In this document: one piece after another, positions 10,448-31,342 of the stretch
Layout of the letters: the number at the start of each line of letters is the position of its first letter
Position numbering within the stretch: the first letter of the stretch is position 1
Origin: Planctomycetota bacterium
GTDB lineage: Bacteria > Planctomycetota > PLA2 > JAEUHO01
Length of the DNA: 34,190 nt
Direction: 5' to 3'
Assembly (NCBI GenBank): GCA_029259795.1
Contig: JAJDEM010000008.1
Span: 1 to 34,190, forward strand
Made by a program: the position numbers and the translations under genes
The notes under the pieces: model-generated
Seen by the model: only the letters and a program-made list of their open reading frames with translations
Told to the model about the DNA's origin: nothing
Databases searched by the model: none

Positions 10448-11449
10448 ATGGAAGCGCGACAACTCACCATGAACGCCGATCGCCTCCGGGTGGTGGCAGA
10501 CATGCTGCCGCTCGTCGAGGGGCTCCTCTCCAACCTCAAGTCGGTCGAGGAGAGCTGGCAGCCGTCGGACTACCTGCCGAACTTTGGCGGGGAGGGTTGG
10601 CGCGAAGAACTCGCCACGCTGCGCGAGGAGGCCGCGAACCTCAGCGACGAGATGCTCGTGGTCTTGGTGGGCAACGTCGTGACGGAGGAGGCGCTGCCGT
10701 CCTACCAGGCGGCGCTCAACCGCTTCGGTGGCATGACGGATCGCACCGGCGTCGAGACCCACGCGTGGGCGCAGTGGAGTCGGGGCTGGACCGCCGAGGA
10801 GAAGCGCCACGGCGATCTGAGTCGGGCCTACCTCTACCTCAGCGGGCGCGTCGACATGCGCTCGGTCGAGCAGACGATCCAGCACCTCCTGCGCAACGGC
10901 TTTGACACGGGGGCCGATGGCGATCCGTTCCTCGGACTCTCCTACGCGTCGATCCAAGAGCACGCAACGAAGACCTCGTGGCGTCAGCTCGGGACGGTGG
11001 TCGGCAAGGCCGGCGCCCCCATGCTGCACAAGTTCTGTGGCCTGATCGCCGCCGACGAGGCGCGCCATGAGCGTGCCTACCGCGCGATGATGCGCGGCAT
11101 CCTCGAGCGCGATCCGGCGGGTGCCCTGCAGGCGATGCGCGATTCCCTTGGGCGCGTGGCCATGCCCGCGAAGACGATGAGTGACGGCAAGAGCCGTCGG
11201 CTCTTCCAGCACTTCTCCGATGTGGGCCGCCGCCTCGGCGTCTACGACCTGCGTGACTACGCCGACAATGTCGATGGCTTCGTCAACGAGCTGAACCTCA
11301 AGACGCTGGAGGGCTTGAGCGGCGACGCGGCCAAGCACCAGGACGAGATCTGCGGCATGGGCGCCCGCTACCGCAAGCAGGCCGACATCATGGACAAGAT
11401 GAAGGTCCGCCCCGTCCCGTTCGCTTGGGTCCACGACCGGAGGGTGTAG
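10448..11449 (+). CDS. Acyl-[acyl-carrier-protein] desaturase (soluble di-iron, FA_desaturase_2 family)
   Basis: The product has 333 residues, near the usual size of soluble acyl-ACP desaturases. These ferritin-like di-iron enzymes use O2 and ferredoxin to insert a cis double bond in acyl chains bound to ACP. Both EXXH motifs are present: EEKRHG (Glu118, His121) and DEARHE (Glu204, His207). Glu80 (in TEEALPSY) and Glu171 (in IQEHATK) complete six ligands. Their spacing (38, 3, 53, 33, 3) equals that of the castor stearoyl-ACP desaturase ligands, so I expect an active enzyme. GGAGG precedes the ATG by 4 nt. Its presence implies aerobic membrane-lipid unsaturation. It converges, across the 1-kb repeat region, on the 12474-12920 gene. 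Confidence 0.93.
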   Translation: MEARQLTMNADRLRVVADMLPLVEGLLSNLKSVEESWQPSDYLPNFGGEGWREELATLREEAANLSDEMLVVLVGNVVTEEALPSYQAALNRFGGMTDRTGVETHAWAQWSRGWTAEEKRHGDLSRAYLYLSGRVDMRSVEQTIQHLLRNGFDTGADGDPFLGLSYASIQEHATKTSWRQLGTVVGKAGAPMLHKFCGLIAADEARHERAYRAMMRGILERDPAGALQAMRDSLGRVAMPAKTMSDGKSRRLFQHFSDVGRRLGVYDLRDYADNVDGFVNELNLKTLEGLSGDAAKHQDEICGMGARYRKQADIMDKMKVRPVPFAWVHDRRV

Positions 11450-11470
11450 CGGCATTCGAGGAAGCCGCTC

Positions 11471-11915
11471 GAATGGCCCTGCACGCTGAGCCTCCTGTTG
11501 TTCGCAACGGCACCTTGCTCCGTCGTAATCGCCCAACGGCAGAGGGCCCGGGAGCCGGGCCGCCGCCATTGGGTCCCTCTTCGTTGGAGTGAGTCCCTTC
11601 GCGGCCTCATGAATCGGCCGCTGTGGTTTGGGCGACCTCCGGACCAACAAGCCCGAATGGCCCTGCACGCTGAACTTGCCGTTGTTCGCAACGGCACCTT
11701 GATCCGTCGTAATCGCCCAACGGCAGAGGGCCCGGGAGCCGGGCCGCTGCCATCAGGTCCCTCTTCGTTGCAGCACGGGCCTTCGCGGCCTCATGAATCG
11801 GCCGCTGTGGATCGGGACGGTCTCCTGACCAACAAGCGCGAATGGCCCTAGACGCTGAACTTGCCGTTGTTCGCAACGGCACCATGATCCGTCGTAAGCG
11901 CAGAACGCCATAGGC
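11471..11915. repeat. 184/185-bp tandem direct repeat, two full copies and a truncated third, with conserved hairpins
   Basis: Copies begin at 11471, 11655 and 11840 with the same GAATGGCCCT start. Copy 1 (184 bp) and copy 2 (185 bp) are largely identical; copy 3 diverges near 11900. Each contains a UUCG-capped 6-bp stem (CCGTTG-TTCG-CAACGG at 11679-11694 and 11864-11879; one U-G pair in copy 1 at 11495-11510). Copies 1 and 2 also have GGCCCGG-GAG-CCGGGCC (11545-11561, 11729-11745) and a GCGGCC/GGCCGC stem with an identical 9-nt loop (11601-11621, 11785-11805). In copy 2 the second stem is extended by GGCAG/CTGCC. No reading frame looks protein-like in any strand. It lies between convergent genes. 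It may be a repeated structured RNA, a REP-like element or a terminator array. Confidence 0.75.
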
Positions 11916-11927
11916 GTCGTTCAGCTA

Positions 11928-12118
11928 ACCCCCTTGGGAGCGCTGTAGATGTCAAGGGGGGTGGCGGCCGCGACGTCCGCGCGAAGGCGCGGACGTAACG
12001 CCTGGCCGCGGGGCTTCGCGTGCGGTTCGGCCCCCTCGGGGCCGACAACGGGCCGAGCCAGCGAGGCCTGTTGAGCACGCGTGAGCCCCCCAGCACAAGA
12101 CGCCGATTCGCAGGCGTC
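11928..12118. other. Cluster of very stable hairpins in the same non-coding region
   Basis: Four stem-loops follow the 184-bp repeats. CCCCCTTG/CAAGGGGG (11929-11936 with 11953-11960) comes first. A 46-nt hairpin at 11964-12009 has stems GCGGCC/GGCCGC, GCG/CGC and ACGTCCGCGC/GCGCGGACGT around a GAAG loop, 19 bp in all. TCGGCCCC/GGGGCCGA (12027-12045) has a 3-nt loop. GACGCC/GGCGTC (12099-12118) has an 8-nt loop. None is followed by a T-run on either strand, so they are not classical intrinsic terminators. No coding potential is evident from 11450 to 12473. Confidence 0.7.
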
Positions 12119-12194
12119 GGCCGCCGGCCGTCATGCCCGAACCGCGGGGGTCTCGATGTCGAACCCGCGTACGCACGCAGGCTCCGGCTCGCAT

Positions 12195-12465
12195 CCGCCC
12201 GCGGCAGGCATCGCCCAAGCTTCGGGCCTCAACCAACGCGAACCCTCTGACCCGCCCGTTAGGGCGGAACACCGGCCAGCACCACCCGCCCGCGGCAGGC
12301 ATCGCCCAAGCTTCGGGCCTCAACCAACGCGAACCCTCTGACCCGCCCGTTAGGGCGGAACACCGGCCAGCACCACTCGCCCGCGGCAGCGCCTTCACGA
12401 ACCACAACGCCCGCCCAACGCGACCCCTGCTGACCCGCGCGTCAGCGCGGAACGTTGTCCAGGTG
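12195..12465. repeat. 91-bp tandem repeat, two identical copies and one diverged copy, with a covarying hairpin
   Basis: Copies run 12195-12285 and 12286-12376 and appear identical. A diverged third runs from 12377 to about 12465, next to the stop of the 12474-12920 gene. The period is not a multiple of three, so it is not a coding repeat. Each copy has a tetraloop hairpin: CCGCCC-GTTA-GGGCGG (12252-12267, 12343-12358), and in the third copy CCGCGC-GTCA-GCGCGG (12435-12450). The stem change is a paired C-G to G-C swap that keeps pairing, which argues for selection on structure. Confidence 0.8.
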
Positions 12466-12473
12466 CGAGGCCC

Positions 12474-12920
12474 CTACACCGACGTCTCAGGCTCCCGCCC
12501 GAGATACGCATCAATCCAGCCACGAGTCGCGTCGTCCAGCCGGCGCAAGGCGTCGATCACCGTTGCGTCGCTGCCGCTCTCCACGGCCGTTACCCAGGCC
12601 TTGAGCGCTTCGCCAAAGCGGGCGCGGCCCTCGAGGTAGCGCGGCACGTCCGTGCGCGACACGTCGTGGGGCATCACGGCCTTGATCAGGGCGATGCCTT
12701 CGCTGGAGAGCGCCGGACCGCGGGCGCGGAGCCGCGCCGCATCACCGCGCGCGGCCTCGACCGCCGCGTCATTCAGCATCGAGCGCATGCGACGAAAGCG
12801 CATCGGCGTCTGCATGGATGCCGGACGGGCGCCGGGCACGCCCGTACCCGCACCCGAGCCAGCGCAGGCCGTCGCCCCAAGCAAGGCGGCGACGAGCAAG
12901 CCGATGGCGAGGCAGCGCAT
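12474..12920 (-). CDS. Small helical lipoprotein downstream of glyS
   Basis: The product has 148 residues. The N-terminus is a signal peptide ending in a lipobox-like Ala-Thr-Ala-Cys (Cys19), then a short Gly/Ser-rich stretch. The rest is helical, with MRFRRMRSMLNDAAVEAARG at its start and AWVTAVESGSDATVIDALRRL near its end. The arrangement recalls a cytochrome-c'-like four-helix bundle, but there is no CXXCH haem site, so I do not assign that family firmly. The ATG lies 5 bp after the glyS stop codon on the same strand, so the two are likely co-transcribed, although no functional link to tRNA charging is evident. The 91-bp repeats begin directly after its stop. Confidence 0.65.
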   Translation of the reverse strand: MRCLAIGLLVAALLGATACAGSGAGTGVPGARPASMQTPMRFRRMRSMLNDAAVEAARGDAARLRARGPALSSEGIALIKAVMPHDVSRTDVPRYLEGRARFGEALKAWVTAVESGSDATVIDALRRLDDATRGWIDAYLGREPETSV

Positions 12921-20281: not shown

Positions 20282-20321
20282 GGACGCATCGCCAGCGAAC
20301 CTCCGGATCGTTCACGCCTCC

Positions 20322-20474
20322 GGGTGGGCACACGGGCCCGCGCGGGGCGCGGACCCTGGCCCACCCCTACAGCATCACCCCTCGCCGAAGGGTCCCGTAG
20401 GGGCTGCCCAGGTACGTCGCGAAGCGACGTGCCGTGTGGCCGCCCGCGATCCTCAGGGAGGCGAGCATCTCGCC
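20322..20474. other. Hairpin cluster between convergent kdsA and the lipid kinase gene
   Basis: The 209-bp convergent gap contains a long hairpin at 20322-20366 with stems GGGTGGGC/GCCCACCC, GGG/CCC and CCGCGC/GCGCGG. ACGTCGC-GAA-GCGACGT follows at 20414-20430 and GGCGAG-CAT-CTCGCC at 20460-20474. None has a T-run. They may stop or stabilise transcripts from both sides. The CCGCGC/GCGCGG stem also occurs in the third 91-bp repeat copy. Confidence 0.6.
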
Positions 20475-20490
20475 GGTGTTCCGCCGCCCC

Positions 20491-31231: not shown

Positions 31232-31272
31232 TTCCGCAACCGTGCCGAGCCCCTTGCGGGCGACGGATCGCC

Positions 31273-31309
31273 AGCGGCGAGCGCCTATGCGCTCGCCGCT
31301 CGCATTTTT
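31273..31309 (+). terminator. Intrinsic terminator after the exported HEAT gene
   Basis: A perfect 12-bp stem AGCGGCGAGCGC/GCGCTCGCCGCT with loop CTAT (31285-31288) is followed by CGCA and five T (31305-31309). It lies 42 bp after the stop and is the clearest terminator in the window. Confidence 0.9.
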
Positions 31310-31342
31310 GGGCTGAAACGCGGGCGGACTCTCGAAGGGACG

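Follow-up and report, generated by a model that had tools for sequence, protein, structure and literature searches.

The closest known kind of element to the repeats described here is that of the REPs and BIMEs, with the GTAG and CGTC super-families (PMC3733652) and the RAYT-linked BIMEs (PMC2817692). REPs elsewhere favour sites between convergent genes and at gene 3' ends (PMC3733652; PMC1525189), and the CGTC repeats have been reported without transposase association (PMC3733652). Among the small mobile sequences of enterobacteria, RU-1, RU-2 and RU-3 have been described as MITE-like (PMC2759123). Our literature search for Planctomycetota intergenic repeats and msDNA-like dispersed repeats was without result. 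In Nannocystis, retron-related repeated sequences have reportedly been found.

The window analysed here is the whole stretch of 34,190 nucleotides of contig JAJDEM010000008.1 (assembly GCA_029259795.1), which belongs to a fragmented MAG of a Planctomycetota bacterium (417 contigs, 89% complete; hereafter G000). In it, a 1,024-bp spacer between two convergent genes is, from stop to stop, one mosaic of independently dispersed modules. In common with REP/BIME, these modules are extragenic, palindromic and species-specific, show compensatory stem changes and form mosaic clusters; they also lie near 3' ends and between convergent genes, an enrichment that was found here as well. They are best read as a genus-restricted, composite REP/BIME-like repeat, which differs from known REPs in its size and building blocks.

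Layout of the locus

A preliminary description of the window had noted a tandem repeat of 184/185 bp at 11471-11915. Tandem Repeats Finder confirmed it (184-bp period, 2.3 copies, 89% matches, score 689 at 11470-11901), as did a direct-repeat search, with spacings of 184 and 185 between the window copies. Its location was therefore correct, but its end was not: the tandem repeat, at 11466-11914 with a period of 184/185, is just the left 45% of the complete feature, and the complex goes on to a 91-bp repeat. Dispersed matches span 1-1021 of the query (window 11446-12480), and with the stop of the left gene at 11449 and that of the right gene, encoded on the opposite strand, at 12474, the spacer is filled from stop to stop. 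Two of the building blocks are A, ~78 nt long, and B, which has two hairpins in ~95 nt; to these come a 3' core, an insert of ~65 nt and the 91-nt, tandem module E. Their arrangement in the window is as follows.

10448-11449, plus strand: left flanking gene, 333-aa protein, 3' end towards the element
11450-12473, plus strand: whole element complex, between the stop at 11449 and the end of the minus-strand gene at 12474
11467-11529, plus strand: module A copy 1, cut short by B
11495-11510, plus strand: A hairpin of copy 1, TTCG loop, T-G pair; equivalents at 11679-11694 and 11864-11879
11530-11623, plus strand: module B copy 1; hairpin 1 at 11531-11574, hairpin 2 at 11601-11621
11651-11713, plus strand: module A copy 2, cut short by B
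11714-11807, plus strand: module B copy 2; hairpin 1 at 11715-11758, hairpin 2 at 11785-11805
11836-12010, plus strand: module A copy 3, uncut, into the conserved core (16-sequence alignment)
12014-12078, plus strand: optional ~65-nt insert (alignment; ends approximate), with copies in the window, L041 and L048 only
12079-12195, plus strand: remaining conserved core, including the hairpin GACGCCGATTCGCAGGCGTC
12196-12465, plus strand: module E, 91-bp tandem repeat; units 12196-12286 and 12287-12377 near-identical, third diverged
12474-12920, minus strand: right flanking gene, small lipoprotein-like protein (by eye), 3' end towards the element

The left flanking protein may resemble the acyl-ACP desaturases. 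The three hairpins previously noted in the tandem repeat are all present as described. The hairpin GTTG-TTCG-CAAC (11495-11510) recurs at +184 and +369, and the U-G pair of copy 1, where copies 2 and 3 have C-G, had been correctly read; because the closing pair of the UUCG loop is G-C, this is not the extra-stable cUUCGg tetraloop. The GGCCCGG/CCGGGCC stem is the tip of a longer one (11531-11574 and 11715-11758), and the GCGGCC/GGCCGC hairpin has the loop TCATGAAT (11601-11621 and 11785-11805). Copy 3, which had been counted as a partial copy after two full ones, is not a fragment but the uncut module A running into the core, where long stems lie at 11924-11965 and 11970-12001. The hairpin of the E unit is either CCGCCC-GTTA-GGGCGG or CCGCGC-GTCA-GCGCGG. 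That no frame looks coding was borne out, since the period is not divisible by 3 and indels separate the copies, so that the reading frame is not conserved; a 117-aa frame crossing the tandem repeat is not conserved among the copies.

Copies and modularity

The suggestion of a dispersed repeat amplified here proved right, with 71 matches in the window's own genome to the 184-bp unit and 74 to 11446-12480, among which only the window copy is full-length. They fall into about 46 footprints, amounting to 17.8 kb of assembled repeat, and because many footprints run into a contig end this copy number is a lower bound. A covariance model of B gave 45 matches in the same genome, and module E gave 51, with arrays of several units.

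The modules occur solo, in tandem, truncated, nested and inverted. Separate searches of the copies for A and B found solo B (L050, L051, L052, L056, L061 and L062) and A or A-core without B (L045, L047 and L059), besides BABA tandems (window, L036, L038 and L039) and inverted B inside the core (L041, L042 and L046). The 16 places with a core start, from which one further, spurious pattern match was left out, align together through A3/core as far as their contigs extend. B starts with a constant CGCCC edge, and the A before it is cut at three different positions. Non-coding, dispersed and nested repeats could also be those of a MITE mobilised by a DDE transposase, a reading that we consider extremely improbable given that no terminal inverted repeats were found on A, B, E or the whole element and that the target-site duplication is not above its control, the longest direct repeats being of 3-6 nt vs a swapped-flank mean of 4.9. 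As described (PMC2759123), RU-1, RU-2 and RU-3 have in common with the present repeats that they are intergenic, about 100-170 bp long and non-autonomous, and differ from them in being MITE-like; no inverted termini were found here.

Two other repeat families were observed in the genome. Family D occupies the second convergent spacer of the window (20282-20490, GTAGGGGCTGCCC...GGCCGCCC); it is dispersed, REP-like and GTAG-bearing, carries GTAGGGGC and gave 19 matches in the genome. Several arrays of the main family have it next to E. A family of ~250 bp, 69-82% identical, lies in tandem and not in convergent spacers (L172:1261-1522, L175:4778-5001 and L178:4724-4970).

Distribution in other genomes

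Among 58 other Planctomycetota genomes, one had a DNA match, that of a sister species in the same genus (G005), in which the covariance model of B recognised one more, diverged B relic (L111). Outside the genus the model gave one marginal match (E=0.03). An exact-pattern scan of 84,980 species genomes returned only the G005 record (Planctomycetota OFTM394) and one contig filed under Alphaproteobacteria OFTM68 (L072, JAJFGV010000072.1). The latter was rejected as a cross-phylum occurrence, because its DNA is 74-80% identical to that of the window's genus and the contig is therefore misbinned. The pattern had no match in IMG/VR, so that no phage occurrence was seen. As far as searched, the element family is confined to one genus. 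At the left-gene locus of one sister genome a different gene follows, and a clean empty site is thus lacking there.

Differences from known repeats and the question of mobility

At 78-95 nt, the modules have two to three times the length of REPs (20-40 nt), and neither the two-hairpin unit B nor a core of several hundred nt is a feature of REP/BIME. The GTAG tag of REPs stands at most 30 nt upstream in just 2 of 34 B copies, and a general GTAG tag is absent from modules A, B and E. Unlike the alternating units of BIMEs, the modules are mostly direct, in head-to-tail BABA order, with inversions only on contigs C374, C281, C52 and C248. A RAYT (Y1_Tnp) gave no match in G000, whereas 14 of the 21 searched genomes have one and G005 has four Y1_Tnp matches; in a fragmented MAG, 89% complete, a missing transposase is weak evidence. 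As the repeats depart from REPs in unit size and tag, in the orientation of the units and in the lack of a RAYT match, we did not file the element as a REP family. One might go further and propose a RAYT-free mobile palindromic mosaic, which would spread through the nesting of hairpin modules and would have been co-opted as a two-sided 3'-end insulator of convergent gene pairs, although we find this distinctly doubtful.

Like the reported Nannocystis repeats, the present ones form dispersed hairpins and share their genome with the gene of a retron-type reverse transcriptase. This gene (L109, contig C60, 1330-2223, minus strand) encodes 297 aa, with RT_XIII, RT_X and RT_III-A as the best PADLOC models, and its neighbour presumably encodes a product resembling peptide chain release factor 2. 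Unlike in the Nannocystis case, no repeat copy lies on C60 and no sequence link was found; the reverse transcriptase was therefore rejected as the driver and is only a lead.

Pairing, covariation and folding

Over 34 copies of B, 91% of the cells are paired and 30 are double-change cells, where shuffles gave 6.6 and slid controls 1-6; at least one double change is present in 10 of 25 pairs. Module E has 17 double-change cells, with G-C replaced by C-G at one pair of its terminal hairpin in 16 of 39 copies; in the core (16 sequences), six pairs show double changes. As cells count copies and not events, we took one event per extra double-changed pair type as the minimum, and infer at least roughly 19 independent double changes over the B, E and core alignments. 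Other copies and covariation, whose absence the preliminary description had named among its refuting conditions, were both found. This covariation is real, but also expected of REP-like palindromes. That pairing is maintained suggests a role of the hairpins, be it in spreading or at the 3' ends of RNAs.

An explanation in which the repeats are purely neutral or selfish DNA would have the palindromes kept either by a mutational process in the hairpins, namely template switching or gene conversion, or by a burst expansion from few source subfamilies, with no effect on the host. It agrees with the stem variants being linked to subfamilies and with the 99% identity of the near-identical tandem E units of the window, as left by recent slippage or recombination. 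However, different pairs are doubly changed in different copies and the stems vary more than the conserved loops, which template switching across a hairpin does not favour.

The preliminary description had also considered an undescribed structured RNA family. In terms of the modules identified here, A-core on the plus strand would then be a functional ncRNA in many copies. The core is indeed several hundred nt long and contains long stems, its 16 aligned sequences show double changes, its plus strand has many one-sided changes from C-G to U-G, and the family would be new, as no match to the element was found in Rfam even at E<5. Choosing the RNA strand from this G-U asymmetry looked strong in the core, but was dropped because the consensus folds better on the minus strand for B and E. 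Only the core folds better on the plus strand, so that no consistent RNA strand emerges, and the whole element gives z-scores of -3.14 and -3.16 vs shuffles for the two strands. This is rather what would be expected of a palindromic DNA repeat transcribed from either side than of a single RNA. Together with modules that recombine, nest and invert, and with the lack of a match in 57 of the 58 other Planctomycetota, this leaves the RNA family unsupported as stated. Given also that copies are truncated and nested, that the window copy yielded no promoter-like site and that the element is restricted to one genus, an ncRNA is very unlikely.

Genomic location

Gene calls were made with a home-made codon-usage caller trained on ten window genes, and 244 gene junctions in 328 kb of the window's genome, 35 of them convergent, served as the baseline. 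Of the 53 gene ends that neighbour a footprint within 400 bp, 46 proved to be 3' ends (p=4e-8); the distance between footprint and gene end has a median of 23 bp. Both neighbours were seen at nine places, seven of which are convergent (Fisher p=6e-5 vs baseline). In an independent survey of spacers of at least 50 bp, repeats were shared by 7/14 of the convergent, 1/69 of the tandem and 0/41 of the divergent spacers (Fisher p=3e-7). These counts leave aside an unrelated group of three tandem spacers, and two of the seven convergent spacers concerned contain family D instead of A, B or E (window 20282-20490 and L173). In the sister genome G005, repeats occupy 7/14 convergent vs 5/107 other spacers (Fisher p=3e-5). 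These are different repeats, among them GTAGGGGCG-type palindromes, as observed in the convergent spacers of L184, L186 and L187 (GTAGGGGCG...GTGGTCGCCC and similar).

Repeats that fill spacers from stop to stop with so short a gap, and are structured on both strands, might have been selected at the ends of convergent genes as dedicated terminators of transcription, or insulators, acting in both directions. However, no hairpin of the window element has a U-tract behind it (0 GC hairpins with U-tract found, 0.9 expected by chance), and of the convergent spacers that reach 50 bp, half are free of repeats. One convergent spacer without repeat (window 31232-31342) has an ordinary U-tract hairpin (GGCGAGCGCCTATGCGCTCGCC...ATTTTT), and the organism therefore probably uses intrinsic terminators. 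Such ordinary hairpins exist at gene ends and are sometimes upstream of B, as at L164 and L166, where some B copies can for that reason hardly shape the upstream mRNA. The missing U-tracts and these two places argue against a general terminator role, and we regard selected terminators as unlikely. For neutral repeats, with insertion tolerance as the only cause of location, the depletion where promoters lie and the absent terminator signature are as expected; on the whole, this explanation appears somewhat unlikely.

Discussion

We consider it probable that these are genus-restricted, composite, non-autonomous palindromic repeats, which spread separately, are kept at gene 3' ends and there most likely form 3'-UTR hairpins. 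A, B, core and E nest in each other in mosaics of up to about 1 kb and would have spread separately. They persist almost only at 3' ends, chiefly between convergent genes, presumably because insertions are tolerated in such promoter-free spacers. At these 3'-3' junctions, tolerance of insertions may thus account for the location without selection for function. Transcription from either flanking gene is predicted to produce GC-rich stem-loops, as palindromic modules present hairpins to transcription from both sides, and the mosaics, as hairpins of the 3' UTR, may shield both mRNAs or reduce read-through. Most likely, the modules have spread as non-autonomous palindromes and then become passive 3' stem-loops for both mRNAs.

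The repeats also explain many contig breaks of the MAG and have exposed one misbinned public contig. For the phylum, they extend REP/BIME-like biology in Planctomycetota to repeats that are several times longer and made of unrelated modules. Their confinement to convergent gene ends is very clean, and the sister species fills the same niche with different repeat families, so that a turnover of such repeats in convergent spacers becomes a testable idea.
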